Part shown: piece after piece, positions 18,131-62,774 of the stretch | How positions within the stretch are numbered: position 1 is the stretch's first letter | How the letters are laid out: every line of letters begins with the position of its first letter | From: Betaproteobacteria bacterium HGW-Betaproteobacteria-16 | Lineage (GTDB): Bacteria; Pseudomonadota; Gammaproteobacteria; Burkholderiales; Burkholderiaceae_C | NCBI GenBank assembly: GCA_002840835.1 | Contig: PHCQ01000024.1 | Coordinates: forward strand, 1-64,000 | Length of the DNA: 64,000 bases | Direction of reading: 5' to 3' | The notes under the pieces: model-generated | Databases searched by the model: none | The model's input: the letters and a program-made list of their open reading frames with translations, nothing else | Told to the model about the DNA's origin: nothing | Translations under genes and position numbers: made by a program

Positions 18131-18205
18131 GAGCCACCGCGGAACCGGCTCCGCCGGGCCGCCAGTGGCCCCGCTGGGGGGAAAGACGCGCAGCGGCGCA
18201 GGGGG
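18131..18205 (-). repeat. 3'-end structured element, copy 1
   Basis: Begins directly after the TGA of the MDR reductase gene. On the minus strand it runs C-rich block, small GC hairpin, CCCCC/GGGG block, then CCGGC-loop-GCCGG flanked by the covarying arms GCCAC/GTGGC. Same orientation relative to the ending gene as the ten other copies. Confidence 0.8.
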
Positions 18206-19222
18206 TCAGATCAACTTGACGAGCTGCTTGCCGAAGTTCTTGCCCTTGAGCAGCCCCATGAATGCTACGGGCGCGGCAGCCAGGCCTTCAGCCACGGTCT
18301 CGCGCGGACGCAGCTTGCCTTGTGCCACCAACGTGCCCAGCTCGGTCAGGGCTTCCGGCCATATTTCCATGTGCTCGCTGACGATAAAGCCTTCGATCTT
18401 CAGGCGGTTCACCAGGATGAGCGCGGGGTTGGTCAGAGGCAGCGGCTGGCCGTCGTATCCGGCGATCATGCCGCACACCGCAATGCGGCCGAATGCGTTC
18501 ATGCGCAGCAGCACGGCGTCGAGCACCATGCCGCCCACGTTTTCAAAATAGCCGTCGATGCCCTTGGGGCAGACTTCCTTGAGGGCCTTGGCCAGGCTGT
18601 ACATGTCCTTGTGCAGTTTGTAGTCGATGCAGGCGTCGAAGCCCAGTTCTTCCACCGCGTATTTGCACTTCTCAGGCCCGCCGGCAATGCCCACGGTGTG
18701 GCAGCCGCGTGCCTTGGCCAGTGCGGCAAAGGCACTGCCCACCGCGCCGGTGGCCGCGCTCACCACCACGGTGTCGCCGGGCTTGGGGTTGATGATCTTC
18801 ACCAGGCCGTACCAGGCGGTCACGCCCGGCATGCCCACGGCGCCCAGGTAGTACGACAGCGGCACGTGAGTCGTGTCGACCTTGCGCAGTGCGCCGGGCT
18901 GCGCGGCATCGACCACGCTGTATTGCTGCCAGCCGCCCATGCCCACGACCTTGTCGCCAGCCTGGAACTTGGGGTGCTTGGACTCCACCACCTCGCCCAC
19001 CGTGCCGCCGATCATCACTTCGCCCAGCGGCTGCGAGGCCGCGTAGCTCTTGCTGTCGTTCATGCGGCCGCGCATGTACGGGTCCAGGCTGAGGAAGTGG
19101 TGGCGCACCAGCACCTGGTTCTCGGAGAGCGCCGGGGTTTCAGTGGTGACGAGCTTGAAGTTGTCGACCGTGGCTTCGCCCTGGGGGCGGTTGTCGAGCA
19201 GGACTTGTTGGTTGGTGGGCAT
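18206..19222 (-). CDS. NADP-dependent oxidoreductase, zinc-free MDR (CurA/leukotriene B4 dehydrogenase-like)
   Basis: A 338-residue medium-chain reductase. Visible: HHFLSLDPYMRGRMND near residues 42-57, GGTVGEVVES, GMPGVTAWYGL (about 125), the nucleotide-binding loop AATGAVGSAF (about 155-164), and GYFENVGG. No structural or catalytic zinc cysteines. Such enzymes reduce C=C bonds of enones, quinones or curcumin-type substrates with NADPH. ATG at 19222 follows GGAGACC. It belongs to the lipid-metabolism run on the minus strand; gap to the upstream SDR gene is 212 nt, so it may have its own promoter. Confidence 0.88.
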   Translation of the reverse strand: MPTNQQVLLDNRPQGEATVDNFKLVTTETPALSENQVLVRHHFLSLDPYMRGRMNDSKSYAASQPLGEVMIGGTVGEVVESKHPKFQAGDKVVGMGGWQQYSVVDAAQPGALRKVDTTHVPLSYYLGAVGMPGVTAWYGLVKIINPKPGDTVVVSAATGAVGSAFAALAKARGCHTVGIAGGPEKCKYAVEELGFDACIDYKLHKDMYSLAKALKEVCPKGIDGYFENVGGMVLDAVLLRMNAFGRIAVCGMIAGYDGQPLPLTNPALILVNRLKIEGFIVSEHMEIWPEALTELGTLVAQGKLRPRETVAEGLAAAPVAFMGLLKGKNFGKQLVKLI

Positions 19223-19434
19223 GGGTGGGTCTCCTGGTGGTGTTAGGGGAAGAGAGAAATTCAAACGGATGGGGTGCGTCACAGAGGCTGGGCGTTTTTC
19301 GGTCGTGTCCGAGCAACGCGCCAAAACGTGCCCAATCAAGGCGCAAAGCACAGCCATAGCTCGGGCTATGGCACGCATTTGCAACGCCGAGTGGGTGCGT
19401 TTGGGCGTGGTGAGCGGTCATGAACGAAAGACTC

Positions 19435-20220
19435 TCAGCCTCTTAGTGTCGGCAGGCCCACGCCGGCGGCGTCGAAGCCGCCGTCAACCGCCAGCACCTG
19501 GCCGTTGATGTAGCTGGCCTGCGAGCTGCAGAGAAAGCCAATCGCGTTGGCAATCTCTTCTTCGCTGCCGTAGCGGGCAAGTGGAATGGTGTCGTGGTAA
19601 TCAGCCCGGATGGCGGGTGTGTGCACCGCCTTGGCCATGGCGGTTTCCACCGGCCCGGGCGCGATGGCGTTCACGCGGATACCGGCGTTGCCGTATTCCA
19701 CCGCCTGTTGTTTGGTGAGGTGAATGAGCGCCGCCTTGGATGTGCCGTAGGCCACGCGCAAGGTGCTGGCACGCAGGCCGGAAATGGATGCGATGTTCAC
19801 CACCGCGCCGCCCCCCTGCTCCAGCATCACGGGCACCACGGCCTGGGTCATGAGGAAGGCACCGTCGAGGTTGGTCGCCATCACCGTGCGCCATTCGTGA
19901 AAGCTGGTCTCACCAATCGGCTTGAACACTGCCACACCGGCGTTGTTCACCAGCGCGTCGATGCGCCCAAAATGATCCACCGTGCGCTGCACGGCGGCGT
20001 CCACCTGCTGGGGGTGCGACACGTCGGCCGGCACGGCGATGGCGAGTTCAGCGCTCACGCCTTCATGCCGCAAGGCCTCCTCAGCTGCCGCCAGCGTGGC
20101 CTCATCATTGTCCAGCAGCACCACCCGGTAGCCGTTCGCCAGAAACCAGCGCGCCGTGGCCAAGCCGATGCCGCGTGCGGCACCGGTAACCAGAGCGACG
20201 GGAAGGTCCGGGTTTGCCAT
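19435..20220 (-). CDS. SDR family oxidoreductase
   Basis: A 261-residue classical short-chain dehydrogenase: TGAARGIG (12-19), Asp37 after the second strand (NAD preference), NNAGV (92-96), Ser in NIASISG (about 146), YGTSKAA (Tyr158, Lys162) and a C-terminal GQVLAVDGGFD. It resembles 3-hydroxyacyl or 3-oxoacyl reductases. The ATG at 20220 shares its A with the TGA of the thioesterase gene upstream (TGATG), so the two are coupled. Substrate probably an acyl-CoA or alcohol given the neighbours. Confidence 0.88.
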   Translation of the reverse strand: MANPDLPVALVTGAARGIGLATARWFLANGYRVVLLDNDEATLAAAEEALRHEGVSAELAIAVPADVSHPQQVDAAVQRTVDHFGRIDALVNNAGVAVFKPIGETSFHEWRTVMATNLDGAFLMTQAVVPVMLEQGGGAVVNIASISGLRASTLRVAYGTSKAALIHLTKQQAVEYGNAGIRVNAIAPGPVETAMAKAVHTPAIRADYHDTIPLARYGSEEEIANAIGFLCSSQASYINGQVLAVDGGFDAAGVGLPTLRG

Positions 20221-20645
20221 CAATCCGTTCTCAGCGTGTTGAGTGCGTGGGTGCCTTTGCCCACCGGCAGGCGCGGCACGAACTTGAAGGTGCCGGTCGC
20301 ATGGCAGCACAGCTTGCCTGCGGCGTCGAAGATGCTGCCTTCGGTGAACGCCATGGTGGCCGTGCGGTGCAGCAGCTTGCCGCGAGCCGTCAGCGGCCCC
20401 TTGGCTGCACTCATGAAGCTGGTCTTCATCTCGATGGTCACGCAACCCATCTCGGGCTGTACCGAGCGCGCCGCGTGCGCCATGACCACGTCCAGCAAGG
20501 TCATGCTGGCGCCGCCGTGCACCACGTCAAACGAATTGAGGTGGTCCTCAGCCGGCGCAAACGTGATCTCTGCCTCGCCGCCTTCCATTCGATGCAACTC
20601 AAAACCCAGCAGTTCGACAAAAGGGATGCGGACAGAAAATTTCAT
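20220..20645 (-). CDS. PaaI family thioesterase
   Basis: A 141-residue hotdog-fold thioesterase with the catalytic signature NSFDVVHGGASMTLLDVVMAHAA (span about 37-59; HGG core at 43-45), a central beta segment IEMKTSFMSA and CHATGTFKFV. Hydrolyses acyl-CoA or phenylacetyl-CoA-type thioesters. ATG at 20645. Coupled to the following SDR gene by a TGATG overlap. A second PaaI-type thioesterase (23900-24337) lies in the same run, only distantly similar. Confidence 0.87.
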   Translation of the reverse strand: MKFSVRIPFVELLGFELHRMEGGEAEITFAPAEDHLNSFDVVHGGASMTLLDVVMAHAARSVQPEMGCVTIEMKTSFMSAAKGPLTARGKLLHRTATMAFTEGSIFDAAGKLCCHATGTFKFVPRLPVGKGTHALNTLRTD

Positions 20646-20687
20646 GAGTGGGTCAAAAAAACGGAGGCGTGCAAGGTCTTCAATCCA

Positions 20688-20773
20688 GTGGCGCCGCGGA
20701 ACCGGCTTCGCCGGGCCGCCAGCGCCGCCCCCTTGAGGGGGTGACGCCGCAGGCGGCGAGAGGATGGGCTCAC
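20688..20773 (-). repeat. 3'-end structured element, copy 2
   Basis: Follows the TAG of the SDR gene at 20774 and precedes the thioesterase gene, so it is inside a same-strand gene run. Hairpins: CGCC-loop-GGCG, CCCCC-loop-GGGGG, and CCGGC-TTC-GCCGG (plus-strand reading) enclosed by GGCGC/GCGCC and GCGG/CCGC arms. Confidence 0.8.
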
Positions 20774-21565
20774 CTAGCCGCCAGTGATCACGGAGACGCC
20801 ACCATCCACCGCCAGCCACTGACCGGTGATGTGCTTGCCGGCATCCGACGCGTACAACACGGTCAGGCCCTTGAGGTCTTCGTCGTCGCCCAGGCGGCCC
20901 AGCGGCGCGTGCGCGGCCAGCTTTTCTTCGCCCATGGCCTTGAGCGTGCCCACCGTCATCTTGCTGGGGAAAAAGCCCGGGCAGATGGCGTTGACCGTGA
21001 TGCCGTACTTGCCCCACTCTGCCGCCAGCGCACGGGTGAAGTTGATCACCGCGCCCTTGGAGGTGTTGTAAGCAATGGTGTTCATGCCGGAGGGGTTGCC
21101 GCCCAGCCCGGCGATGGAGGCGGTGTTGATGATGCGGCCGTGCTTGCGGGCGATCATGCTGCGCTTGGCCAGCACCTGGCTCAGGATGAAGTAGCTGCGC
21201 ACGTTGAGGTTCATCACCTTGTCCCAGGCTTCCACCGGGTGGTCTTCGGCCGGTGCGCCCCAGGCGGCGCCGGCGTTGTTCACCAGGATGTCGATGTCAC
21301 CCAGGCGCTGCAGGCTCTCGTCGGCCAGGCGGTGGATGTCTTCCTCCTTCGAACAGTCGGCGGCGACCCAGCGCGCGTCGATGCCGGCGGCCTGCAACTC
21401 GGCCGTGGCGGCCTCCAGGTCTTCGGCCTTGCGCGAACTCACCAGCACGCGGGCACCGGCTTCGCCCAGCGCATGAGCCATCTGCAGGCCCAGCCCGCGC
21501 GAGCCACCGGTGATCAGGGCGGTCTTGCCCTTGAGGTCAAAAAGTTGGGAAACGGTACGGGTCAT
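20774..21565 (-). CDS. SDR family oxidoreductase (RhlG/FabG-like)
   Basis: A 263-residue classical short-chain dehydrogenase: TGGSRGLG (residues 19-26), SSRK after the second strand (basic residues suggest NADPH), NNAGAAWG (about 96), NTASIAG (Ser about 146), YNTSKGA (Tyr about 163) and GQWLAVDGG. Resembles RhlG and gluconate/3-oxoacyl reductases acting on acyl chains. ATG at 21565. It follows the Dabb gene in the beta-oxidation run with a 193-nt gap that contains an ACACCC/GGTGTG hairpin and element copy 3. Confidence 0.87.
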   Translation of the reverse strand: MTRTVSQLFDLKGKTALITGGSRGLGLQMAHALGEAGARVLVSSRKAEDLEAATAELQAAGIDARWVAADCSKEEDIHRLADESLQRLGDIDILVNNAGAAWGAPAEDHPVEAWDKVMNLNVRSYFILSQVLAKRSMIARKHGRIINTASIAGLGGNPSGMNTIAYNTSKGAVINFTRALAAEWGKYGITVNAICPGFFPSKMTVGTLKAMGEEKLAAHAPLGRLGDDEDLKGLTVLYASDAGKHITGQWLAVDGGVSVITGG

Positions 21566-21690
21566 GTTGTCTTCCTCGATGTGATTGGGGGTGTCGGGAT
21601 GATTGTCATTGTGGGCGATTCACACCCTTCGGTGTGTCACCGGCGCGGCCTGCGCCTTTCGGAGCGAGGTGCCCCATCAAGCAACACCCA

Positions 21691-21758
21691 GGATCCGGCT
21701 TTGCCGGTCCAACGGTGTGCCCCCTTGAGGGGGTCGCGCGCAGCGCGGCGGGGGTGGG
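21691..21758 (-). repeat. 3'-end structured element, copy 3
   Basis: Abuts the TGA of the Dabb gene. Contains CGCG-type hairpin, CCCCC-loop-GGGGG hairpin and CCGGC-loop-GCCGG with outer ACACC/GGTGT arms. Lies between Dabb and the next SDR gene on the same strand. Confidence 0.78.
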
Positions 21759-22061
21759 TCAAGCTTCGTAGTCGAAGCATTGCCTGGACTCGACGACGGC
21801 CTTCATGAACGGCTTGATGGCCACGTGGTCCGGGTGGTTCAGGTAGGCGTCCAGCGCGGTGCGGTCGGCAAACGCGCTGCACAGCAACAGGTCGCAGGTC
21901 GCTTCAAACCCTGGCTGGGCGGTACCCACTTCAAAGCGCAGGATGCCAGGGGTGATGTCGGCGCAGGCCTTGAGCATCTCGGCGGCCTTGGCGAGGTTGG
22001 CGGCCTTCTTTTCGCCTTCAGCCTCGTCCTTCAAGGTCCACATCACGATGTGGTGCAGCAT
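21759..22061 (-). CDS. Dabb family (stress-responsive alpha/beta barrel) protein
   Basis: A 100-residue dimeric alpha/beta-barrel domain. It starts MLHHIVMWTLKDEAEG, typical of the Dabb family, with the second half LCSAFADRTALDAYLNHPDH also characteristic. Members include polyketide cyclases and small stress proteins; function here is not known. ATG at 22061 overlaps the TGA of the acyl-CoA dehydrogenase gene as TGATG, so it is likely co-expressed with beta-oxidation. Confidence 0.88.
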   Translation of the reverse strand: MLHHIVMWTLKDEAEGEKKAANLAKAAEMLKACADITPGILRFEVGTAQPGFEATCDLLLCSAFADRTALDAYLNHPDHVAIKPFMKAVVESRQCFDYEA

Positions 22062-23884: not shown

Positions 23885-23899
23885 GATGATCTCTTCTGT

Positions 23900-27727: not shown

Positions 27728-27890
27728 ATTTTAGGGAATTGTTGCAACGCGGCAAGTGCGAGATGTCGCGAGAGAGTCATTGAAACAAAGAACAGGCGCT
27801 GCGGCTACCGAACCGCTTTCGAACATGCAACCGAAAGAAATTCCAGAGCAACAGAGTTAGCGCGTCCGGCGCGAAATGTCTGATCCAGAG

Positions 27891-27967
27891 CCAGCGCGGA
27901 ACCGGCTTTGCCGGGCCGCTGCTGGCGCCCCCCTGGGGGGGTGACGCGAAGCGGCGCGGGGGGGTGC
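27891..27967 (-). repeat. 3'-end structured element, copy 4
   Basis: Abuts the TAG of livF. Contains CGC-loop-GCG, CCCCCC-loop-GGGGGG and CCGGC-loop-GCCGG enclosed by GCCAGC/GCTGGC and GCGG/CCGC arms. On the minus strand it is followed by CATTTCGCGCCGG (27866-27878), a tail shared with copies 6 and 7. Confidence 0.8.
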
Positions 27968-28663
27968 CTAAACCTCCAGCCACTCCTTCCGCGTATAAGG
28001 ATCCGCCCGCAAACTCTCCGGCGTGCCCTGAAACACGATGCTGCCATGGCCCATCACCAGCGCCCGGTCGGAAATGCTCATGGCGATGGTGAGCTTCTGT
28101 TCGATCAGCAGCACCGATATGCCGCGACTTTTCAGCTTCTGCAGGTATTCGGCCACCAGCTCCACGATCTTGGGTGCCAGGCCCTCGGTCGGCTCGTCGA
28201 TGATGATCAGGTCCGGGTCGCCCATGAGCGTGCGACACAGGGTGAGCATCTGCTGCTCGCCCCCTGAAAGCACGCCAGCTTCCGTGTGCTGGCGCTCCTT
28301 CAGCCGCGGGAACATGGCGTACATGTCGTCAAAGCCCCAGCGCGATCCCTTGCCATTCCCCTTCTGCCCGAGCATCAGGTTCTGGTGCACCGTGATCTTG
28401 GGGAAAATGTCGCGGTTCTCAGGCACGTGACCAATGCCCAGGTGGGCAATTTCGAACGATTTTTTGCCCCGGATGTTCTGCCCCTTCCAGTTCACCTCGC
28501 CCGTGCTTTCGACCAGCCCCATGATGGCCTTGGCCGTGGTGGAGCGGCCCGAGCCATTGCGGCCCAGCAGCGCGACGATCTCGCCGGGCTGCACCTGAAA
28601 CGAAACGCCGTGCAGCACATGGCTCTTGCCGTAGTAGGCATGCAGGTTGTCGATCTTCAACAT
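27968..28663 (-). CDS. livF: HAAT ABC transporter ATP-binding protein LivF-like
   Basis: A 231-residue ATPase of the branched-chain amino acid (HAAT) family. Walker A reads GRNGSGRST: the invariant Lys is Arg here (codon CGC). Other motifs are intact: signature LSGGEQQM, Walker B LIIIDEPTEG, switch His region LLIEQK. ATG at 28663 follows the preceding gene after 128 nt that hold element copy 5. It should pair with LivG. Given the adjacent CoA ligase, the substrate may be an organic acid rather than an amino acid (inference). Confidence 0.9.
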   Translation of the reverse strand: MLKIDNLHAYYGKSHVLHGVSFQVQPGEIVALLGRNGSGRSTTAKAIMGLVESTGEVNWKGQNIRGKKSFEIAHLGIGHVPENRDIFPKITVHQNLMLGQKGNGKGSRWGFDDMYAMFPRLKERQHTEAGVLSGGEQQMLTLCRTLMGDPDLIIIDEPTEGLAPKIVELVAEYLQKLKSRGISVLLIEQKLTIAMSISDRALVMGHGSIVFQGTPESLRADPYTRKEWLEV

Positions 28664-28689
28664 GACTTGACTTTCAATGGAAGCTGCTT

Positions 28690-28791
28690 CTTTCCAGAAA
28701 CGCCGCAGAACCGGCTCTGCCGGGCTGCTGGCGTTGCCCCCTTGAGGGGGGATGCGGCTACGCGCAGCGAGCAAGCGACGGGGGTGTTCAT
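28690..28791 (-). repeat. 3'-end structured element, copy 5 (between livG and livF)
   Basis: Starts a few nt after the livG stop and lies inside the liv operon. Hairpins include CCCCC-loop-GGGGG and CCGGC-loop-GCCGG with arms AACGCC/GGCGTT and GCAG/CTGC, a sequence combination not seen in the other copies but still complementary. Confidence 0.8.
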
Positions 28792-29619
28792 CTAATGCCC
28801 GGCAGCCTGCTGTTCGGCTTCGGTGCCCAGATAGGCCTCCTGCACGCGGGGGTTGGCGCGCACCGCCTCAGGCGTGTCGAAGGCGATCACCTCGCCATAC
28901 ACCACCACCGCAATGCGGTCGGCCAGGCCGAACACCACACCCATGTCGTGCTCGACCGTCAGCAGGGTCTTGCCCACCGTCACTTCGCGGATCAGTTCGA
29001 TGAAGCGGCTGGTCTCGCTTTTGCTCATGCCGGCAGTGGGTTCATCGAGCAGCACCACGTGGGCCCCACCGCCGATGGTGATGCCGATCTCCAGCGCACG
29101 CTGTTCGGCGTAGGTCAGGTTCATGGCCAGCACATCGCGCTTGCGGTCCAGGTGGATCTTGCGCATGAGTTCCTCGGCGCGTTCGTTGGCATCGTCCAGA
29201 TCGGCCAGGAAGCGGAACAGCGTGTACTTGTAGCCCAGGCTCCACAGCACACCGCAGCGCAGGTTCTCGAACACGCTGAGCTTGGGAAAGATGTTGGTGA
29301 TCTGGAAGCTGCGGGAGAGCCCCATGCGGTTGATCTCGTAGGGCTTCTTGCCGTTGATGCGCTGCCCCGCGAGCAGCACGTCGCCGCTGGTGGGCTCGAA
29401 GCGCCCCGAAATCAGGTTGAACAGGGTGGACTTGCCCGCGCCGTTGGGGCCGATGATGGCCACCCGTTCGCCGGGCTGGACCGCCAGATTGGCTCCCCGG
29501 ATGATCTCCGTTCTGCCAAAGCTTTTGCGCAGGTCGCGCAGTTCCAGCGCCGGTGTGGTGGCGTTCATCGGGGTTCCTCCGCTTGCAGCGCCGGGATGGA
29601 CCATGGTCGATGCACTCAT
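28792..29619 (-). CDS. livG: HAAT ABC transporter ATP-binding protein LivG-like
   Basis: A 275-residue ATPase: Walker A GPNGAGKST (about 57-65), LSRSFQITNIFPKLSVFENL (Q-loop region), signature region NLTYAEQRALEIG in place of LSGGQ-type, Walker B VVLLDEPTAG and switch His in TVEHDMGVVFGLADR. The ATG at 29619 overlaps the livM stop as ATGA and has GGGAG upstream, so I prefer it to the ATG 17 codons later. Partner of LivF at the cytoplasmic face of LivHM. Confidence 0.92.
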   Translation of the reverse strand: MSASTMVHPGAASGGTPMNATTPALELRDLRKSFGRTEIIRGANLAVQPGERVAIIGPNGAGKSTLFNLISGRFEPTSGDVLLAGQRINGKKPYEINRMGLSRSFQITNIFPKLSVFENLRCGVLWSLGYKYTLFRFLADLDDANERAEELMRKIHLDRKRDVLAMNLTYAEQRALEIGITIGGGAHVVLLDEPTAGMSKSETSRFIELIREVTVGKTLLTVEHDMGVVFGLADRIAVVVYGEVIAFDTPEAVRANPRVQEAYLGTEAEQQAAGH

Positions 29620-39480: not shown

Positions 39481-40968
39481 ATGAACCGACCCGTCGAAAT
39501 GGCCGCAGGCCTGGACCTTGGCCTTGCCTGGCGCAACCGTTTTGCCGATCTGGGCGAAACTTTTTTCACCCCGTTGGCGCCCACGCCGCTGCCCGAACCG
39601 CACTGGGTGGGCACGAGCCCGGCGGTGGCCGATCTGTTGGGCCTGGAACGCGCCTGGCTTGATTCGCCTGAAGCCCTCAATGCCCTCACCGGTAATGCAC
39701 CGATCGCCGGCACGCAACCGCTGGCCAGCGTGTACAGCGGCCACCAGTTTGGCCACTGGGCCGGCCAACTGGGCGACGGCCGCGCCATTTTGCTGGGCGA
39801 GGTGGACACCGCCTCCGGCCCACAGGAAGTGCAGCTCAAAGGCGCCGGGCTCACACCCTATTCCCGCATGGGCGATGGCCGGGCCGTGCTGCGCAGTTCC
39901 ATCCGCGAATTCCTGTGCAGCGAGGCCATGCATGGCCTGGGCATTCCCACCAGCCGCGCACTGTGCGTGACGGGTTCGCCCGCCCCGGTGTACCGCGAAA
40001 CGGTTGAGACCGCCGCGGTGGTCACGCGCGTGGCGCCGAGCTTCATCCGCTTCGGCCACTTTGAACATTTTTCGCATGGCGACCAGCATGGCGCGCTGCG
40101 CCAGCTCGCCGACTTCGTGATCGACCGTTTCTACCCGGCCTGTCGCGACGCCCCGGGCAGTCCCTACGCCGCGCTGCTCGAAGCGGTCAGTGCGCGCACG
40201 GCTGCCATGGTGGCTCAGTGGCAGGCCGTGGGCTTCTGCCATGGCGTGATGAACACCGACAACATGAGCATCCTGGGGCTGACCATCGACTACGGGCCGT
40301 TCCAGTTCCTCGACGCCTTCAACCCTGCCCACATCTGCAACCACAGCGACACCGGCGGGCGCTACGCCTACATTCGCCAGCCCAACATCGCCTACTGGAA
40401 CCTGTTCGCGCTGGGTCAGGCACTGCTACCCCTGATGGACGACCAGCAGCAGGCCATCGACGCGCTGGAGCCCTACAAGGCCCTGTTCCCGGCCGAACAG
40501 CAACGGCGCATGGGGGCCAAGCTGGGCCTGGCTACGGTGCAGGCCGGCGACACCGAACTGCTGGAGTCGCTGATGCAACTGATGGCCAAGGACGCCGTGG
40601 ATTTCACGATCTTTTTCCGCCGCCTGTGCAGCGCCGTGAACGGCCCGCTGGAGCCCGTGCGCGACCTCTTCCTGCAGCGCGAGGCCTTTGACGCCTGGGC
40701 GGTGCGCTGGCGCGAACGCCTGCACGCACAGCCAGGGTTCGATGCCGAGCCCACAGCCGCAGCCATGCGCAGGGTCAACCCACGCATCGTGCTGCGCAAC
40801 CATCTGGGTCAGGTGGCCATCGAACGTGCGCAGAATGGCGACTTCAGCGAGGTAGACCGGCTGGTGAAAGCTTTGGCCGCACCGTTCGACGAACGGGAAG
40901 GCGAAGACGACCTGGCTGCTTTTCCGCCCGACTGGGCCAGACAAATAGAGATCAGTTGTTCATCTTGA
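39481..40968 (+). CDS. selO: protein adenylyltransferase SelO (YdiU family)
   Basis: A 495-residue pseudokinase-fold enzyme that AMPylates Ser/Thr/Tyr of redox proteins. Motifs: [19 protein letters not shown] (about 80-98, nucleotide loop), [23 protein letters not shown] (span 118-140), [28 protein letters not shown] (span about 252-279) with the metal-binding Asn and Asp. The C-terminus ends CSS; the Cys matches the conserved C-terminal cysteine/Sec region of the family. The frame is open upstream into the AraC gene, but ATG 39481 is the family start. Followed by element copy 6 and msrB, a fitting oxidative-stress partner. Confidence 0.93.
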
Positions 40969-40974
40969 GAAACA

Positions 40975-41059
40975 CCCCCGCCGCGCTCCGCGCGACCCCC
41001 TCAAGGGGGCGATACCAGTCGTCCGGCGAAGCCGGCCCGACGGTATCTCTGGAACGAGG
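40975..41059 (+). repeat. 3'-end structured element, copy 6
   Basis: Begins 6 nt after the selO stop. On the plus strand: CGCG-loop-CGCG hairpin, CCCCCTCAAGGGGG hairpin, then GATACC-A-GTCG, CCGGC-GAA-GCCGG, CGAC-GGTATC. The inner arm GTCG/CGAC replaces GTGG/CCAC of copy 8, a compensatory change. A tail GCATTTCGCGCCGG follows. Confidence 0.82.
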
Positions 41060-41111
41060 CATTTCGCGCCGGCTGGATGGGTGGTGGCAGTTTCTTTTTT
41101 AAAGGATTGGT

Positions 41112-41513
41112 ATGGACTTCCCCATCAAGAAAACCGATGCCGAATGGCGTGAGATCCTGGCTGCCAAGGGGGCCGAGCCTGGGGCCTTCGAGGTGACGCG
41201 CCATGCCCACACTGAGCGTCCATTCACCGGCAAGTACGAAGCCATCTGGGCCGATGGCAGTTACCACTGCGTCTGTTGTGGCAACCACCTGTTCGATGCC
41301 GGCACCAAGTTCGACGCCGGCTGCGGCTGGCCGAGTTTCTGGAAGGCGATTCCCGGGGCCGTCACCGAGATCACCGACCGCAGCCACGGCATGGTGCGGG
41401 TGGAAACGGTGTGCAGCCAGTGCGGCGCGCACCTCGGCCATGTGTTTGAAGACGGCCCGGCACCCAGCGGTTTGCGTTACTGCATGAACTCAGCATCTTT
41501 GGAGAAAAGGTAA
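41112..41513 (+). CDS. msrB: peptide-methionine (R)-S-oxide reductase
   Basis: Repairs methionine-R-sulfoxide in proteins. The 133-residue protein has zinc ligands Cys53/56 (CVCC) and Cys101/104 (CSQC), the GCGWPSFW segment and catalytic Cys124 in RYCMNSASL. The resolving cysteine of thioredoxin-dependent forms is expected earlier in the chain; Cys71 in DAGCGWPSF is the candidate. ATG at 41112 follows AAAGGATTGGT. Cytoplasmic (no signal). It lies after selO in the same direction. Confidence 0.95.
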
Positions 41514-41640
41514 CTCCCCCCTGCGCCGCTGACGCGGCTTCCCCCCTCTCTGGCGCGCCTTCGGCGCTGGGAGGGGGGACGCACCCTGTGGCCCGGCGAA
41601 GCCGGTTCCACGGGTGCACTGGATGTGGGAGCATTTCGCG
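41514..41640 (+). repeat. 3'-end structured element, copy 7 (long variant)
   Basis: Starts at the msrB stop. It nests GGCGC-GCCTTC-GGCGC inside CCCCCC/GGGGGG arms and ends with GCACCC-T-GTGG, CCGGC-GAA-GCCGG, CCAC-GGGTGC. About 110 nt of it are nearly identical to copy 10 after cydB. Tail GCATTTCGCGCCGG present. Confidence 0.83.
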
Positions 41641-41690
41641 CCGGAAGCTTTTTGTCTCTCCCCCTGCGCCGCTGGCGTGCGGGAATACCT

Positions 41691-42242
41691 TTAGGTCGTC
41701 CAGGCCACGAACGCACCGATGCCGGTGCCCAGCGCCAGGCCGGCGATCACGTCGGAGGGGAAATGCGCACCGGCGTACACACGTGCCCAGCCGGTGGCCA
41801 GGGTGATCCCGAACACGCCGAACAGCACCCACGGCGGTGCCCCCAGATACAGCAGAAACCCGAACACACAGCCCATCACTGTGGCGTGTGTGCTGGGAAA
41901 CCCGGCTCGCAAGCTGTGGTCGAGGTGGTTGGGACTCAGGCCCACCGCAAAGGGTCGTGCCGATTGCCAGCGTGCCGATGTTTTTTTGCTCAGCACCTGC
42001 ACCGCACCCCCGGTCAGAATGGCATGAAAGGCCACGCTGAGCGCGTCCATGCCTTGCAAGGCCCAGAGCGCCAGCACCGCCGTCAGCGGCACCCAGCTCC
42101 AGTGGGAAATGGCCTTGGCCACGGCCAGCCAGCCAGGCGAAACCGCGTGTCCGGCGCCCATCCAGGCGAAAACCCGGGCGTCGTGTCGCCGCCATGCAGG
42201 GAGGCTTTCCGGAGCCCTGGCGTGAGAAGTATCGGTTGACAT
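41691..42242 (-). CDS. PAP2 family phosphatase
   Basis: A 183-residue membrane phosphatase with about 5 helices. The three catalytic motifs are visible: KKTSARWQSARPF (K-x6-RP), GFPSTHA (PSGH-like with Thr) and RVYAGAHFPSDVIAG (SR-x5-H-x3-D like). Substrates could be undecaprenyl diphosphate or lipid phosphates. ATG at 42242; the sequence before it lacks a strong ribosome site. Convergent with msrB, sharing the gap that holds element copy 7. Confidence 0.88.
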   Translation of the reverse strand: MSTDTSHARAPESLPAWRRHDARVFAWMGAGHAVSPGWLAVAKAISHWSWVPLTAVLALWALQGMDALSVAFHAILTGGAVQVLSKKTSARWQSARPFAVGLSPNHLDHSLRAGFPSTHATVMGCVFGFLLYLGAPPWVLFGVFGITLATGWARVYAGAHFPSDVIAGLALGTGIGAFVAWTT

Positions 42243-46542: not shown

Positions 46543-46572
46543 CAAGCGTCTCCGGAGTGAAATGCCTCCAAC

Positions 46573-46660
46573 CAGAGATACCGTGGAACCGGCTTCGCCG
46601 GGCCACTGGTATCGCCCCCTTTGAGGGGGTGACGTGCCGACGGCACGGCGCGGGGGTGGG
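46573..46660 (-). repeat. 3'-end structured element, copy 8 (between cbbS and cbbX)
   Basis: Abuts the cbbS TGA inside the operon. Hairpins CGTGCC-loop-GGCACG, CCCCCT-loop-GGGGG, and GATACC-GTGG / CCAC-T-GGTATC around CCGGC-TTC-GCCGG. Could separate high cbbLS from lower cbbX expression. Confidence 0.82.
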
Positions 46661-47098
46661 TCATGAATACCTTTCGCTTTCAGGGGTGTCGGTGGCATAG
46701 CTGTGCACCGTGTAGCGCATCGTGCGTCCACCAGACTCCTGGCGCGACAGGGCGAAGCCCGGCTCCCTGGCGGGCCGGTTGACGATGAAGCTCATCGCGA
46801 TCGACTCGGTGTTGCGCGTCGAGTCGAAGGCCATCATGCGGATGTAGTGGTTGGGAAACGTCTTGCGGCAGGCACTCAGTTCGAGCATCACGCCAGCGGC
46901 GTCCTTCAGGTCGAACATGGGATGGCCGAACATCTCCCAGTAGGTGTTGCGCGGGTGCGGGTCGTCGGTGTATTCGACGCTCCAGGCATAGCCCTTTTTC
47001 ATGCCGTATTCGATCTGCAGCGCGATCTCGGCATCGGTGAGGTCGGGCAAAAAACTGAACTGACCCTGCGTCAGCCGGCCGGTGGGGTTGGTCATCAT
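46661..47098 (-). CDS. cbbS: ribulose bisphosphate carboxylase small subunit (red type)
   Basis: A 145-residue small subunit: [47 protein letters not shown] (span about 12-58) with the C-terminal extension after residue 115 ([19 protein letters not shown]) that makes the beta-hairpin of red-type enzymes. Start ATG 47098; a second ATG follows immediately and is equally possible. It is 12 nt behind cbbL. Confidence 0.96.
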
Positions 47099-51077: not shown

Positions 51078-51078
51078 T

Positions 51079-52590: not shown

Positions 52591-52668
52591 TGGCTTCAAA
52601 GTTAGCCAAGTATTGTCTCACTTTGATGATTTTTCGAAGAAAAACTCCGATAGCACTTGCCCTACCCC

Positions 52669-52771
52669 GTCCAGGGCACCGCGGAACCGGCTCCGCCGGG
52701 CCGCCAGTGCCGCCCCCTGGGGGGTGACGCCGAAGGCGGCGCGGGGGGTGTCGTCATTGCGGCGCGGGGGG
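52669..52771 (-). repeat. 3'-end structured element, copy 9
   Basis: Abuts the stop of the ypfJ-type peptidase. Arms GGCAC/GTGCC and GCGG/CCGC enclose CCGGC-loop-GCCGG. The GCGGCGCGGGGGGT block is duplicated next to the stop. It lies in the convergent-free gap upstream of the rhlE-type gene. Confidence 0.8.
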
Positions 52772-53671
52772 TCACAACTCCCTGGCTTTGAACGTGTCAC
52801 ACGCGGTCACACTGCCGGTCTGCAGACCGGCATCGAACCAGCGCTGGCGTTGCGCGCTCGTGCCGTGCGTGAAGCTGTCGGGCACGACCTGCCCCTGGCT
52901 CTTGCGTTGCAGGGCGTCATCGCCAATGGCCGCCGCTGCATTGAGCGCCTCTTCCACGTCGCCCGGCTCCAGAATCGCCTGCGACTTGTGGTTGTGGTGT
53001 GCCCAGATGCCGGCAAAACAGTCGGCCTGCAGTTCCAGGCGCACGCTCAGTGCGTTGTATTCGCGCTGGCTCACGCGGCCACGCATCTGGTCCATCTTGT
53101 CGGTGATGCCCATGAGGTTCTGCACGTGATGGCCCACTTCGTGCGCAATCACGTACGCCTGCGCAAAATCGCCGGGCGCACCCAGCTGGCTGCGCAAGGT
53201 GTCGTAGAAGCCCAGGTCGATGTAGACCTTTTCGTCGCCAGGACAGTAAAACGGCCCCATCGCAGACTGACCGGTGCCGCAGGCCGTGGGCGTGGCGCCG
53301 CGAAACAGTACCATGCGTGGCTTTCGGTACTGGGCGCCACCGTCCTTGAACACCTGGCCCCACACGTCTTCGGTGCCGCCCAGCACGGCCGCCACGAAAC
53401 GGCCCATGTCATCGGTGGGTGCCTGGGCGGGTCCGGGAGCGGTCTGGGTCTGTGTCGGCGCCATCAGGTCACCGCCACCACTGAGCGCCCCCAGAATGGT
53501 GATGGGGTTGATGCCGAAAATCCAGCCGGCCACCAGGGCCACCACGATGGTGCCCAGGCCGATATTGCGACCGCCCGTGCGGCGTCCTCCGCCCCCGCCG
53601 AACATGCCGCCACCCGGTTGGGAACGGCGATCTTCCACCTGATCGGACTGGCGGTTCTTTTCCCACTTCAT
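52772..53671 (-). CDS. neutral zinc metallopeptidase (YpfJ family)
   Basis: A 299-residue membrane-anchored protein. N-terminal cytoplasmic part is Gly/Arg-rich (GGGMFGGGGGRRTGG), one membrane helix at about 37-60 (IGLGTIVVALVAGWIFGINP), then the peptidase domain with zinc motif HEVGHH (177-182) and downstream ELQADCFAGIWAHH, whose Glu should be the third ligand. Substrate unknown. ATG at 53671 after GAGGAACCAGACC. Confidence 0.92.
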   Translation of the reverse strand: MKWEKNRQSDQVEDRRSQPGGGMFGGGGGRRTGGRNIGLGTIVVALVAGWIFGINPITILGALSGGGDLMAPTQTQTAPGPAQAPTDDMGRFVAAVLGGTEDVWGQVFKDGGAQYRKPRMVLFRGATPTACGTGQSAMGPFYCPGDEKVYIDLGFYDTLRSQLGAPGDFAQAYVIAHEVGHHVQNLMGITDKMDQMRGRVSQREYNALSVRLELQADCFAGIWAHHNHKSQAILEPGDVEEALNAAAAIGDDALQRKSQGQVVPDSFTHGTSAQRQRWFDAGLQTGSVTACDTFKAREL

Positions 53672-56551: not shown

Positions 56552-57559
56552 ATGAACATGACCTGGGCCGAAGTGCTCCCTCTCATCTTTCTCGCCGTGA
56601 TGGGCCTGTCCTTGTTGGCCTATGTGGTGCTCGATGGCTACGACCTGGGCGTCGGGCTGCTGCTGCCGCTGGCCAGCAGCAAGGAGCAGAAGGACACCAT
56701 GATCTCCAGCATCGGCCCGTTCTGGGACGCCAACGAAACCTGGCTGGTGCTGGGTGTGGGCGTGCTGCTGGTGGCGTTTCCGATGGCGCACGGCCTGGTG
56801 TTGCAGGCGCTGTACCTGCCAGTGGCTGTGATGCTGATCGGCCTGATCCTGCGCGGCGTGGCGTTCGACTTCCGCGTCAAGGCACCCACACGCTACGTGC
56901 CCTTCTGGAACCGCGCGTTCTTTGGCGGCTCGTTGCTGGCCAGCGCCTCTCAGGGCTGGATGCTGGGCAGCTACATCACGGGCTTTGACAGCGGCTGGCT
57001 GGGCCTGGCGTTCAGCCTGGGCATCGCGCTCACCTTGCCGGCAGGCTACGTGTTGCTCGGTGCGGGCTGGCTGATCATGAAGACCGAAGGCGAACTGCAG
57101 GAACACGCCGTGCGCTGGGCGCGACGCGTGATCTGGCCCATGGGCGTTGCGCTGGTGGCCATCTCGGCCGCCACCCCGCTGGTGAACCAGGATGTGGTGG
57201 ACAAATGGTTCAGCGTGCCTGAGGTGTTCGCCCTGATGCCGATCCCGCTGAGCTGCGCCATTGCATTCTTCGCGGTGCGCTGGGTGGTGACCCACCCGAA
57301 CGTGGTGAAGGCAGGCTACGGCTGGGTGGTCTTCGCGTCCACCGTGCTGATCTTCGTGCTGGCCTTCCTTGGTCTGGCCTACAGCATCTTTCCGGACATC
57401 GTGATCGGCCGCATGACGGTCTGGGAAGCCGCCATCTCCACCGGTTCGCTCACGGTCATTTTCGTGGGTGTGGCGATCACGCTACCGATGATCATCGTCT
57501 ACACGATTTATATGTACCGGGTCTTCTGGGGGAAAGCGCGGGCATTGACATACAACTGA
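56552..57559 (+). CDS. cydB: cytochrome bd-type (CIO-like) ubiquinol oxidase subunit II
   Basis: A 335-residue membrane subunit with about 8 helices: VLDGYDLGVGLLLP, SIGPFWDANETWLVLGVGVLLVAFP (span about 51-75) and GGSLLASASQGWMLGSYITGF are family hallmarks. Length matches CioB (about 335) rather than E. coli CydB (379). ATG at 56552, 37 nt behind cydA. No cydX-like small ORF follows; element copy 10 begins right at the stop. Confidence 0.94.
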   Translation: MNMTWAEVLPLIFLAVMGLSLLAYVVLDGYDLGVGLLLPLASSKEQKDTMISSIGPFWDANETWLVLGVGVLLVAFPMAHGLVLQALYLPVAVMLIGLILRGVAFDFRVKAPTRYVPFWNRAFFGGSLLASASQGWMLGSYITGFDSGWLGLAFSLGIALTLPAGYVLLGAGWLIMKTEGELQEHAVRWARRVIWPMGVALVAISAATPLVNQDVVDKWFSVPEVFALMPIPLSCAIAFFAVRWVVTHPNVVKAGYGWVVFASTVLIFVLAFLGLAYSIFPDIVIGRMTVWEAAISTGSLTVIFVGVAITLPMIIVYTIYMYRVFWGKARALTYN

Positions 57560-57668
57560 CTCCCCCCTGCGCCGCTTACGCGGCTTCCCCCCTCTCTGGC
57601 GCGCCTTCGGCGCTTGGAGGGGGGACGCACCCTGTGGCCCGGCAAAGCCGGTTCCACGGGTGCCCTGG
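57560..57668 (+). repeat. 3'-end structured element, copy 10 (long variant)
   Basis: Begins at the cydB stop. Nearly identical over about 110 nt to copy 7 after msrB, 16 kb away, differing at only a handful of bases. Arms GCACCC-T-GTGG / CCAC-GGGTGC around CCGGC-AAA-GCCGG. Confidence 0.85.
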
Positions 57669-57942
57669 ATTGGGACAGCTCGCTCCGGAGTTGTGTTCGG
57701 CACTCCCCTCGCTGGTGAGCCTGTACCTTGCCAGGGTGGGCGGGTTGGGTGCGCGGGCGCAGGGACGATTCGCGGTTGCCACAGAGGTCGCACACCAGCC
57801 ACGGTGTTGACGCGATCACAGTGGCGCACACGGGAAGGCGCCCGCGAGCTGGACCGGAGAACGCGTACCCGGCCCGCCCGCCCCGCCACAAAAGGAACAA
57901 ACGAAACGGGCCCACCTCCCGTGCACCAGAGCAACGAAAAGA
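57669..57942. other. convergent gap after cydB with no supported gene
   Basis: Between element copy 10 and the guaD stop. Arg/Pro-rich frames occur on both strands but lack start signals and family features. No classical terminator was found. Confidence 0.5.
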
Positions 57943-60464: not shown

Positions 60465-60493
60465 GGTGTTCCTCTACATGGCTTCCGTGAATG

Positions 60494-60523: not shown

Positions 60524-60543
60524 GTGGGCATGATTTTAGACGC

Positions 60544-61560
60544 TCAGGCGGTAGCCACCGCGTGATCCAGCGCGGCCATGAGTTCGGCGCGACGCGCCTC
60601 ACTCACAAAGCTGGCCTCGAAGCTGTTGCGCGCCAGGGTGATCACGTGCTCGCGGGACAGATCCAGCGCCTGCACGGTCTGGGTGAAATTGGCGTTCATG
60701 TAGCCACCAAAGTAGGCCGGATCGTCCGAGTTCACGGTGGCGCACAGGCCGGCGTCGAGCAGGCGCTTCATGGGGTGATCGCGCAAGTCATTCACCACGC
60801 AGAGCTTGAGGTTGGAGAGCGGGCACACCGTGAGCGGTGTGCGGCGTTTCGCCAGTTCGGCCACGAGCGCTGGGTCTTCGAGCGAGCGAACGCCGTGGTC
60901 GATGCGCTCGGTCTTCAGATCGTTCAGCGCTTCCCAGATGTAAGCCGGCGGCCCCTCTTCGCCCGCATGCGCGACGATGTGCAGGCCGAGTTCGCGGCAG
61001 CGGGCGAACACGCGCGAGAACTTGCTTGGCGGGTGGCCCACCTCGCTTGAATCCAGCCCCACACCGATGAAATGCTTGCGGTACGGCAGCGCGGCTTCCA
61101 GTGTGGCGAAGGCGTCTTCTTCGCTCAGGTGACGCAGGAAACACAAGATGAGTTCGGCGCTGATGCCCAGTTCGGCCTTTGCCCGCGCACAGGCACTCGC
61201 CAGGCCCTGGATCACCGTGGCCATGGGCACGCCGCGTGCGGTGTGGGTTTGTGGGTCGAAGAAGAGTTCGGCATGCACCACGTTGTCGGCCTTGGCGCGC
61301 AGAAAGTAGGCCCAGGCCATGTCGTGGAAGTCGGCCTCATGCAACAGCACGCTGGCGCCCGCGTAATAAATGTCCAGAAAGCTCTGCAGGTTGGTGAAGG
61401 CATAGGCCTCGCGCAGCGCGGCTTCGCTGGCATACGGCAGGCTCAATCCGTTGCGCTGCGCGAGCGCAAAGATCAGTTCGGGTTCGAGCGAGCCTTCGAT
61501 GTGAATGTGGAGTTCGGCCTTGGGGATGGCGGCGGCGAGTTCAGTGGGGGTCATGGTCAT
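60544..61560 (-). CDS. adenine deaminase (adenosine deaminase superfamily)
   Basis: A 338-residue deaminase. Metal/catalytic motifs: KAELHIHIEGSLEPEL (His-x-His), IVAHAGEEGPP (His, Glu), RIDHGVRSLED (His) and TVNSDDPAYFGGY (Asp pair). The IEGSLEPE, PLSNLKLCV and DDPAYFGGY forms match the adenine deaminase subgroup (Aah1-like) rather than true adenosine deaminases (which have LDG and SSN), so adenine to hypoxanthine is the likely reaction. ATG at 61560 (another ATG two codons later). Lies 16 nt behind the Rieske gene. Confidence 0.9.
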   Translation of the reverse strand: MTMTPTELAAAIPKAELHIHIEGSLEPELIFALAQRNGLSLPYASEAALREAYAFTNLQSFLDIYYAGASVLLHEADFHDMAWAYFLRAKADNVVHAELFFDPQTHTARGVPMATVIQGLASACARAKAELGISAELILCFLRHLSEEDAFATLEAALPYRKHFIGVGLDSSEVGHPPSKFSRVFARCRELGLHIVAHAGEEGPPAYIWEALNDLKTERIDHGVRSLEDPALVAELAKRRTPLTVCPLSNLKLCVVNDLRDHPMKRLLDAGLCATVNSDDPAYFGGYMNANFTQTVQALDLSREHVITLARNSFEASFVSEARRAELMAALDHAVATA

Positions 61561-61576
61561 GTTTCTGTGAATGCGC

Positions 61577-62602
61577 TCAACAAGTGCCCAGGGAGATGGC
61601 AAGCCGTTTCAGGTACCGGCGGTAGGCGCTCGACACCCGGTCGGCGGGCCCGTGCACCTCGGTCACGGCCGTGGTGCGGCCGATGGGCAGCGTGCGCGGT
61701 GTCTGCGATTCCACCACGGGGCGGTCCTGGGCAAACACGGTGTTCTGGAATTCAACCAGCTCCTGATCGCTCGACGTGTCGCCCTGCGTGGCCATCACGA
61801 ACCACGCTGTGCAACTGGCATCGCCGTCGGGGCGAATGAAGAGCGCCATCGCGTTGCTCACCGGGTCGCCCTCGCTCGCGTCCTTGCGCAGAATGGCGGC
61901 AAACGGGTGCGGCACGTCGTAGCGGTAGTGGATCCAGGCGCCCTCGTCGGCACCCGCGTAGGCGCGGGGTTGCCAGGCGCGCGCGTTGAGCACAGCCAGT
62001 CCATTGGCGCCTTCCTCCACCTGTCCCGTGTCCACCTTCGCGTGGCTGCGCTCACCCAGCCAGCCTTCGTGCACGAAGCCGAAGTGGCTGAGGTCGAGGA
62101 AGTTTTCCACCAGACGCGGCGCGCTGGTGTCGAGCTCATAAGGGCCGCAGACCACTCGGCGCCAAGCATCGTCTTCTCCGACAGCAAACAAGGGCGGTTC
62201 GTCGAGCACACCCAGCGTCTCTGCCGGCGCCTGCAGTCGCACCCACACCAGCCCTAAGCGTTCACGGGCCTCGAACACCGTGGTCACGTGGCCTGCGGGC
62301 GGCGTGAAATCGGGTGCGGCGGGAATGTGCTGGCAATGGCCGGTGTGACCGAACTGCCACCCGTGGTAAGGGCATTCCAGCCGGGCGCCGTGCACACCGA
62401 TCAGCACCCGGCCCAGCGAGAGCTGTGCCCCCCGGTGCGGACACTGGTCGGCCCAGGCGTGCACCCGTTCAACGTGGTGCCCATGCTCCCGCTGAGGTTC
62501 GCGCCAGAGCACCAGCGACTGCCCGAGCAGCGCGCAGGCCACAGGTGCCTCACGCACCTGGTGCGAGGCGATCACGGGGTGCCAGAGTTGCTTTTCGATC
62601 AC
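61577..62602 (-). CDS. Rieske non-heme iron oxygenase alpha subunit, candidate purine hydroxylase
   Basis: A 341-residue ring-hydroxylating oxygenase. Rieske 2Fe-2S ligands in CPHRGAQLSLG and CPYHGWQFG; mononuclear iron ligands in NFLDLSHFGFVH (N-x2-D-x2-H-x4-H). It resembles vanillate demethylase-type single-component oxygenases; no reductase gene is in the window. Context of guanine and adenine deaminases and BMP proteins suggests a purine substrate, as in the HpxD or NdmA/B type enzymes (inference). GTG start at 62602 with AGGATGATGACAAG upstream; no in-frame ATG is closer. Confidence 0.9.
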   Translation of the reverse strand: MIEKQLWHPVIASHQVREAPVACALLGQSLVLWREPQREHGHHVERVHAWADQCPHRGAQLSLGRVLIGVHGARLECPYHGWQFGHTGHCQHIPAAPDFTPPAGHVTTVFEARERLGLVWVRLQAPAETLGVLDEPPLFAVGEDDAWRRVVCGPYELDTSAPRLVENFLDLSHFGFVHEGWLGERSHAKVDTGQVEEGANGLAVLNARAWQPRAYAGADEGAWIHYRYDVPHPFAAILRKDASEGDPVSNAMALFIRPDGDASCTAWFVMATQGDTSSDQELVEFQNTVFAQDRPVVESQTPRTLPIGRTTAVTEVHGPADRVSSAYRRYLKRLAISLGTC

Positions 62603-62689
62603 CTTGTCATCATCCTGTGATTTCGCTCGGGGCTCTCAGCACTGCATTTTCTTTCGACCCAACAAGAAAGCCGCCCGGAGGCGGCCTTC

Positions 62690-62774
62690 CATTCCAGGGC
62701 ACGGCGGGTCCGGCTTCGCCGGTCCGCACGTGCCGCCCCCTCGAGGGGGTCGCGCAAAGCGCGGCGGGGGTGGG
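62690..62774 (-). repeat. 3'-end structured element, copy 11
   Basis: Abuts the TGA of the lipoprotein BMP gene, before the Rieske gene. Hairpins CGCGC-AAA-GCGCG, CCCCC-TCGA-GGGGG, and GGCACG-GCGG / CCGC-A-CGTGCC around CCGGC-TTC-GCCGG. Confidence 0.82.

Follow-up and report, generated by a model that had tools for sequence, protein, structure and literature searches.

The window, that is, the whole 64,000-nt stretch of contig PHCQ01000024.1 that was analysed, contained eleven structured elements, each lying behind a gene (Table 1). All eleven positions listed in the earlier note were recovered (11/11). Its claim that the elements lie near stop codons in a uniform orientation was also borne out, since all of them were on the sense strand and their model matches began 1–24 nt past the stop of a gene on the same strand (11/11).

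Table 1. Copies of the repeat in the window. Genes are from a home-made gene caller; scores of the repeat model (R1) are in bits.
Copy	Position	Strand	Context	R1 (bits)	Distance after stop (nt)
1	18123..18204	-	behind gene 18206-19222 (-)	70.6	1
2	20680..20764	-	behind gene 20774-21565 (-)	90.9	9
3	21673..21754	-	behind gene 21759-22061 (-)	80.4	4
4	27880..27962	-	behind ABC transporter ATPase gene 27968-28663 (-)	96.8	5
5	28689..28773	-	between ABC transporter ATPase genes 28792-29568 and 27968-28663 (both -)	80.3	18
6	40975..41057	+	behind SelO/YdiU-family gene 39481-40968 (+)	93.9	6
7 (long hairpin 2)	41518..41627	+	behind gene 41112-41513 (+), next gene convergent	65.9	4
8	46567..46656	-	behind gene 46661-47098 (-)	87.5	4
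9	52666..52747	-	partial 5'-arm duplication reaching stop at 52772	67.9	24
10 (long hairpin 2)	57564..57673	+	behind gene 56552-57559 (+), next gene convergent	72.7	4
11	62688..62770	-	behind gene 62775-63998 (-), intrinsic-terminator-like hairpin directly after	87.4	4

The eleven elements are copies of one dispersed, REP-like palindromic repeat family, which is present in many betaproteobacterial genomes in large copy numbers. In the genome of origin, which belongs to the Hydrogenophaga group, the model search found 38 copies in the 464 kb examined (a 39th match, at E 0.3, was omitted from this count), and the whole genome held at least 150 copies among the matches listed. Within the order, the repeat was present in two or more GTDB families. 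Polaromonas JS666 gave 98 model matches, and genome G160 carried tandem arrays with a spacing of 86–87 bp (80–120 bp in other arrays). Carriage on mobile replicons was rarely seen: an exact-core search returned just one viral-contig stretch, and blastn with one copy matched 2 of 72,556 plasmid records and no phage or E. coli record. The earlier note had described the elements as directional, stop-proximal, hairpin-forming and covarying, which stood; it had missed their identity as a dispersed repeat, their presence or absence at orthologous stops and the tandem copies in relatives.

Copies were roughly 83–110 bp long, and the model unit had 83 positions. A C-run came first, followed by a small, variable hairpin, a C-run/G-run hairpin and finally a long one (hairpin 3), whose tip was CCGGC-loop-GCCGG and whose outer stem varied freely but remained paired. 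Hairpin 3 had a constant flank, AGGGGGC, across 259 copies, and the sequence after it was mostly CTGGA-like. This agreed with the fold predicted from the window (a small GC hairpin, CCCCC-loop-GGGGG, and CCGGC-loop-GCCGG with an outer stem), and all the outer stems quoted with that prediction were present in the alignment: GATACC/GGTATC, GGCACG/CGTGCC, GCACCC/GGGTGC, GGCGC/GCGCC, GGCAC/GTGCC, GCCAC/GTGGC, GCCAGC/GCTGGC, AACGCC/GGCGTT and ACACC/GGTGT. The copies listed at 41514 and 57560 had a longer hairpin 2, and in that at 52669 the 5' arm was partly duplicated.

Covariation was measured in a MAFFT alignment of 21 copies picked solely by the CCGGC core and the C-run/G-run hairpin. The proposed covariation proved to be above chance: 97.3% of cells were paired (86.6% after shuffling), 53 cells were two-sided (11.8 after shuffling), and the score of 0.332 (shuffled 0.117 ± 0.011) was reached in 0/500 shuffles. 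The outer stem also covaried, in a fixed register, among 123 copies with an exact core taken from other genomes, its pairing being preserved despite sequence change. The wobble test, in which the copy filter favoured G·U, gave 66 G·U vs. 25 A·C cells, and 50 of the G·U cells came from one pair position. With that position set aside there was no sense-strand excess (16 G·U vs. 23 A·C), and thus the covariation is no proof of selection on, or function of, the RNA. Given the base composition, the folding energies were unexceptional, with z between +0.54 and −4.55 and 6/11 copies weaker than −2.

Placement relative to stop codons was examined in the genome of origin and in a named-genus set of 115 copies (127 matches minus 12 at locus edges), whose genes were called with a coding table seeded from the genome of origin. 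Three of the 135 sense copies had no C-run and were omitted. Of the remaining 132, 119 had their own first C-run no more than 12 nt from the stop, compared with 35.9 expected under uniform placement in the free space. The anchoring held in all 28 convergent sense copies (11.8 expected), in 41/49 co-directional copies that had 60 nt or more of free space behind the stop (5.6 expected) and in 7/10 copies with at least 150 nt free (0.4 expected). Thirteen of the 132 lay farther than 12 nt from the stop, six of these beyond 60 nt. By a looser measure (the first run of four C, whatever its owner), 128/134 were within 12 nt, and the end of the first C-run lay a median 10 nt past the stop.

A sense orientation behind a gene was found for 33/38 copies of the genome of origin, 102/115 of the named-genus set and 29/34 from another family (38 loci minus 4 without a recognised core), with 5/38, 13/115 and 5/34 exceptions, respectively. 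Orientation was therefore far from random, as the earlier note had held, but not absolute genome-wide. Between co-directional genes, sense exceeded reverse copies by 25 to 5 in the genome of origin and by 82 to 8 in the named-genus set. Among gaps of at least 85 bp in the genome of origin, copies numbered 28 in 140 co-directional, 8 in 27 convergent and 0 in 37 divergent gaps. The stop codons before the elements were 25 TGA, 6 TAG and 2 TAA (background 295, 36 and 24). TGA as a DNA target was rejected since it was not enriched at these stops.

Orthologous stops were filled by the element in some genomes and empty in others, and the filled/empty labels changed 5, 5 and 4 times on the gene trees of three loci, which indicated that copies come and go. 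In this coding, the degraded copies at the 18206 site (L191 and L194) were scored as filled, some rows scored as empty there had another downstream gene, and at the 28792 locus L193 was scored as empty despite having no listed site. The element behind gene 28792-29568 was absent in the 18 relatives examined. No clear target duplication appeared among the filled/empty pairs listed. Mobilisation by a RAYT, with the RAYT gene flanked by two inverted copies, was rejected, as no RAYT locus carried the repeat: the 28 Y1_Tnp loci of the genus (~88 kb) gave 0 model matches at E ≤ 0.1.

The element did not have the form of an intrinsic terminator, a G+C-rich hairpin followed by a T-run. The earlier observation that it lacks a U-tract held for the element proper, but an intrinsic-terminator-like hairpin containing a T-rich stretch directly follows the copy at 62690. 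A separate intrinsic terminator was found behind 1/33 copies in the genome of origin and 4/102 in the named-genus set. Intrinsic terminators were rarer at gene ends with the element than at others in the pooled sets (5/134 vs. 44/377, p = 0.006), and this depletion was not significant in any one set alone. That the family is one of transcription terminators is improbable. Such a role would fit the 3'-end location, the closeness of every convergent copy to its stop and the depletion of ordinary terminators at element-bearing ends. However, it is at odds with the lack of a T-run, with the separate intrinsic terminators behind 5/135 copies and with the 107/135 sense copies that lay upstream of a co-directional gene, at a median 67–72 nt from core to gene. 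One of these sites had a stop-to-next-start distance of at most 13 nt in 15/18 relatives. The frequent position between co-directional genes accorded with the earlier view that simple termination is not enough.

Rfam 15 gave no match at the gathering score within the window, and only sub-threshold matches at E ≤ 5 in 40900-41800. A described counterpart probably exists, however: compared by description only, the BRE (Beta-proteobacterial repeat element) and Bor-1 repeats of Bordetella are probably the same family. A literature search, mostly outside subscription journals, for the element or for stop-anchored repeats returned the BRE/Bor and general REP papers only. According to the consulted sections of PMC3110155, BRE is ~90 bp long (75–91) with a G+C content of 69%, lies mostly between genes, forms tandem copies at some loci and is suspected to be mobile, with hosts in Bordetella and the Comamonadaceae, including Polaromonas JS666, where our repeat also occurs. 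All 13 tabulated BRE loci are co-directional or convergent. The unit sizes are alike (83 model positions here, and 86–87 bp for the tandem units in G160), and the G160 arrays correspond to the BRE tandem units of ~90 bp, a few nt apart, of Alcaligenaceae-type genomes, G160 being placed in the Alcaligenaceae by inference. BRE is credited with 1–29 copies per genome, whereas our repeat reaches at least 150, and those sections mention neither palindromes nor stop anchoring, both features of our repeat. For BRE locus 3 (lexA), no match above 24 bits was found at six lexA loci of the G160 genus or at those of 13 further genomes, loci that carry no species assignment. As far as PMC1590033 and PMC2267715 were consulted, Bor repeats have a 26–30 bp palindromic core near coding regions and were compared to the E. 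coli REP, and Bor-1 is 93–117 bp long, intergenic and structured, with 128–196 copies. They share the palindromic, structured and gene-adjacent character of our repeat; the parts consulted describe no orientation or stop rule for Bor.

REP/BIME systems with a RAYT, as outlined in the consulted parts of PMC2817692, PMC3733652 and PMC12306157, resemble our repeat in being many-copy extragenic palindromes, mainly between co-directional or convergent genes, that are maintained by paired changes, some of them near stops. Our repeat differs in having three hairpins in a fixed order and a single orientation, whereas orientation alternates in REP/BIME. It also lacks the link with RAYT loci and the GTAG/CGTC foot tag: within 7 nt of hairpin 3 in the 259 copies (5' + 3' sides), GT[AG]G occurred 1 + 1, GGAG 2 + 6 and CGTC 0 + 0 times. 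Most of its copies are stop-proximal, whereas for the REPs of E. coli PMC12306157 places 446/4,072 or 260/496 at 15 nt or less from a stop.

At the level of sequence comparison, dispersal in many copies, turnover at orthologous sites and a sense placement that mostly falls in the first ~12 nt past the stop, without TGA preference, were demonstrated. Here, we propose, with a probability of roughly 0.5, that the repeat is a non-autonomous palindrome kept behind stops, where it would serve as a portable hairpin block at the 3' end. Its transcript would form the beginning of the 3'UTR and fold in that position. Its hairpins may act as a portable barrier to 3'-5' exonucleases, as in classic REPs, and may favour Rho-type 3' ends; they might also slow the terminating ribosome, because the first hairpin starts ~10 nt after the stop. 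Copies that are reversed or placed elsewhere would mostly be lost, which would leave the sharp stop anchoring. E. coli REPs reportedly repress translation over a range of stop distances that includes 10 nt (cited in the consulted part of PMC12306157), and the median C-run end falls within this range, which was counted in favour of this proposal. Also counted in its favour were the dispersal, the anchoring and orientation, the distribution over gap types, the absence of TGA enrichment, the turnover at orthologous stops, the preserved stem pairing and the pooled scarcity of intrinsic terminators at element-bearing gene ends. A role in RNA processing, stability or attenuation, as the earlier note put forward, is possible. 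In B. pertussis, bprJ, the only BRE transcript reported in the consulted sections of PMC3110155, is antisense to both neighbours and was judged independently transcribed; if BRE is the same family, bprJ is not a 3'UTR, which counts against the hairpin-block proposal. So do the lack of a G·U excess over A·C cells, which would be expected if the sense RNA alone mattered, the modest folding energies, the failure of the terminator depletion to reach significance in any one set, and the copies that were out of sense or far from the stop.

The same distribution might also arise if a purely selfish palindrome inserted widely and survived just behind stops, where genes, promoters and ribosome-binding sites stay unbroken, and had no function in RNA. 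We consider this doubtful. Copies gained and lost at the same stops, the degraded copies L194 and L191, the arrays in G160 and the absence of a sense-strand wobble excess are all consistent with it; mere tolerance does not predict anchoring in places with 60 or 150 nt to spare, nor the excess of sense over reverse copies between co-directional genes. Insertion itself may instead be aimed at gene ends (the stop codon, or the end of translation or transcription), which would fix position and orientation and make any function secondary. In favour of this, the anchor is tight whichever of the three stop codons is used, and the same stops saw 4–5 label changes without a change in orientation. However, no mobilising enzyme was found, the 28 Y1-transposase loci giving no model matches, the listed pairs lack a clear target duplication, and losses instead of repeated gains could equally yield the tree counts, so this reading appears rather unlikely. 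We give a similarly low weight to a mobile, portable 3'UTR whose spread would be coupled to the ends of translation or transcription, inserting in sense behind any stop, supplying a structured 3' end and hitting a given stop more than once across lineages.

Many-copy palindromes of bacteria are usually regarded as loosely intergenic, whereas this repeat is mostly locked to the stop in one orientation, even where space is ample. This makes an old question testable, namely whether insertion or transcript-level selection determines where REP-like repeats lie. The many natural copies per genome, together with the filled and empty orthologous sites, provide material for a genome-wide readout of their effect. 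Within the genome of origin, the 64-kb window, which was chosen post hoc, held 11 copies vs. 27 in the other 400 kb examined (p = 0.005).

All 11 places at which the earlier note had claimed elements were read directly and aligned in the orientation of the gene ending there. The three hairpins described for them were present in each: a small one preceded by a C-run, the C-run/G-run hairpin, and a long one tipped by CCGGC-loop-GCCGG (hairpin 3). RNAalifold predicted 21 pairs from these copies, and a two-sided change occurred at least once in 11 of them. The claimed stem covariation held in a set of 21 copies from the window plus a further 400 kb of this genome, which were picked by the tip and the C-run/G-run hairpin rather than by the outer stem. 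Two-sided changes were present in 13 of 25 pairs, and five of five measures exceeded all 500 shuffles and all slid versions. When 123 exact-core copies from 120 loci of named species-representative genomes were measured in a fixed register without alignment fitting, outer-stem pairing was 0.85–0.98 at eight positions (shuffled means 0.48–0.94) and stopped sharply at the ninth (0.13). Within three orthologous loci, two-sided departures that stayed paired numbered 23 in the stems, against 5 wobble and 18 broken states; 8 of the broken ones came from one degraded copy. The 5′ hairpin had several differing sequence versions in one layout by our own reading of the alignments. A repeated partial duplication of the 5′ arm was also observed. 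Several window copies carry a tail 3′ of hairpin 3; 5 of 11 fitted a simple pattern for it, and others came close (see table).

Structural variants, neighboring repeats and the transposase gene, with their positions
Feature	Position	Remark
Far longer C-run/G-run hairpin (CCCCCCTCTC...GGGAGGGGGG)	window 41518–41627	folding z-score −4.55
Far longer C-run/G-run hairpin (CCCCCCTCTC...GGGAGGGGGG)	window 57564–57673	folding z-score −4.23
Partial duplication: stop, CCCCC(C)GCGCCGCA, 7–12 nt, complete fresh C-run and hairpin	window 52748–52774; L196 and L199 (relatives), behind the 18206 orthologue	
CATTTCGCGCC / CACCTCGCTCC-like tail	e.g., window 41058–41075, 46545–46566	
C-run/G-run hairpin without hairpin 3	L202 (relative), behind the 28792 orthologue	one of three longer spacers
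C-run hairpin and C-run/G-run structure, hairpin 3 missing	L199, behind the 27968 orthologue	
Different palindromic repeat, GTTCGGGCTGAGC...GTCGAAG type	L186 and L201 (relatives), behind the 20774–21565 orthologues	occupies the stop where other relatives carry the element
Same repeat	L201, behind the 27968 orthologue	interrupts one element copy
Y1-transposase (RAYT-type) gene, the only one of its genome	L183 (G000:C158:48667–48960)	

The covariance-model search proposed earlier was carried out with a model of 83 positions (R1), which gave 38 copies in 464 kb of the source genome, 21 of which had built the model, and at least 150 matches in the whole genome (5.79 Mb). Copies occurred in 29 of 30 genus genomes including the source (4 to at least 150 each) and in one there were none. 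The exact 20-base core was found in at least 120 stretches of species-representative genomes; 17 genera were named among the core matches listed, mostly Burkholderiales, alongside a few MAGs carrying the label of Gammaproteobacteria or of a higher group. At E ≤ 0.001, R1 matched Hydrogenophaga taeniospiralis at least 150 times, Polaromonas JS666 98 times, and Variovorax paradoxus NBRC 15149 and Paracidovorax oryzae 39 times each. Under stricter filters, 4 of 150 genomes in an order-wide sample matched, the source and one congener counted in. In the family of G160, a genome probably of the Alcaligenaceae, 74 of 268 genomes spread over 7 of 43 genera matched, and in G160 itself the units stood head to tail, spaced 86–87 bp in three arrays and 80–120 bp in others. 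The element was nearly absent from the viral contigs, phages and plasmids searched, and Rfam gave zero matches to the window.

With gene coordinates from a home-made caller, a same-strand gene lay upstream of 33 of 38 copies in the source genome, and 31 began within 35 nt of that gene's stop (mean 4.0, maximum 12 in 2000 random gap placements). Gaps of at least 85 bp held a copy in 28/140 co-directional, 8/27 convergent and 0/37 divergent cases; the named-locus figures (89/260, 19/32 and 4/93, the last being four divergent-gap copies) come from core-picked loci and are not prevalences. Among the named genomes, 102 of 115 non-edge copies came after a same-strand gene, and for 95 of these 102 the stop and the core behind it lay 30–81 nt apart; in another sampled family 29 of 34 were sense behind a gene, counting best-scoring loci only. 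The median distance from the stop to the start of the element's own first C-run was 4 nt in the source genome and 6 nt in the named ones. Because many gaps are short, uniform placement in the actually free space was used as the baseline; within 12 nt of the stop there were 119 of 132 sense copies (35.9 expected), 28 of 28 convergent ones (11.8), 41 of 49 co-directional ones followed by 60 nt or more of free space (5.6) and 7 of 10 with at least 150 nt free (0.4), and 6 of 132 lay more than 60 nt away. No shift towards TGA was seen at element-bearing stops, either in the source genome (25 TGA, 6 TAG, 2 TAA) or at named stops (66, 20 and 16), relative to the background (295, 36 and 24). On an Acidovorax plasmid, a match began 9 nt after the independently annotated hypE and stopped 10 nt before the following start.

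Site history was followed at five window stops in syntenic stretches of genus relatives. Behind gene 28792–29568 the element was found in the source genome only (18 relatives read); 15 of the 18 had at most 13 nt between the stop and the following start, and three had longer spacers. The structures without hairpin 3 in L202 and L199 may belong to a shorter, related element. Filled as well as empty sites occurred behind 18206, 20774 and 27968. Paired comparisons such as L199:5077 and L200:3552 with L203, L189 and L192 set a stop holding the unit against the same stop lacking it; no clear target duplication was found in these pairs among the alignments listed. The filled/empty label required 5, 5, 4 and 1 changes on a tree of four upstream proteins, and at the first locus it hardly clustered (5 changes, shuffled mean 6.0).

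By its position, the element would lie in the 3′UTR. The first C-run, measured by a looser proxy, ended at a median distance of 10 nt from the stop. This falls within the 15 nt over which an effect of E. coli REPs on translation is reported (cited in PMC12306157). Intrinsic terminators were rarer at element-bearing gene ends (5/134 vs. 44/377, p = 0.006 on pooling the sets, none of which was significant alone). G.U pairs were not in excess over A.C outside one pair position (16 G.U vs. 23 A.C cells), several stem pairs switched among A-T, G-C and C-G, and folding z-scores were modest, the strongest being those of the two long-hairpin copies. These three properties count against a purely RNA-level constraint, and therefore the covariation may arise at the DNA level, through copying or correction of the palindrome as DNA; ssDNA-hairpin transposition and template switching are candidate mechanisms. 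Here, we give about even odds to a dispersed DNA palindrome whose kept copies serve as portable 3′-end hairpins, a function that we infer; the main rival is a selfish palindrome.

The closest known kinds were compared through their published descriptions. According to PMC3110155, BRE is alike in size, G+C, tandem habit and hosts, and the non-divergent setting of all 13 loci tabulated for it agrees with the element; its sole reported transcript, antiparallel to the neighboring genes, is at odds with a 3′UTR. The surroundings of lexA, a gene beside one of the BRE loci, were examined as well: no match above 24 bits turned up at 6 lexA loci of the G160 genus or at those of 13 further genomes, a result that speaks neither for nor against identity with BRE. 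Bor/Bor-1 is alike in core length, place and structure according to PMC1590033 and PMC2267715. Stop anchoring with fixed orientation was not described in the accessible portions of the literature searched on BRE, Bor and REP repeats. Two defining features of tagged REPs with a RAYT were sought, and the element showed neither a conserved GTAG/CGTC tag nor, at the 28 Y1-transposase loci searched in the genus, a RAYT association. One or two Y1-transposase genes of the RAYT type occurred in 26 of 30 genus genomes, including one without any element copy. The gene right after the one in the source genome presumably resembles a glutamate synthase large subunit.
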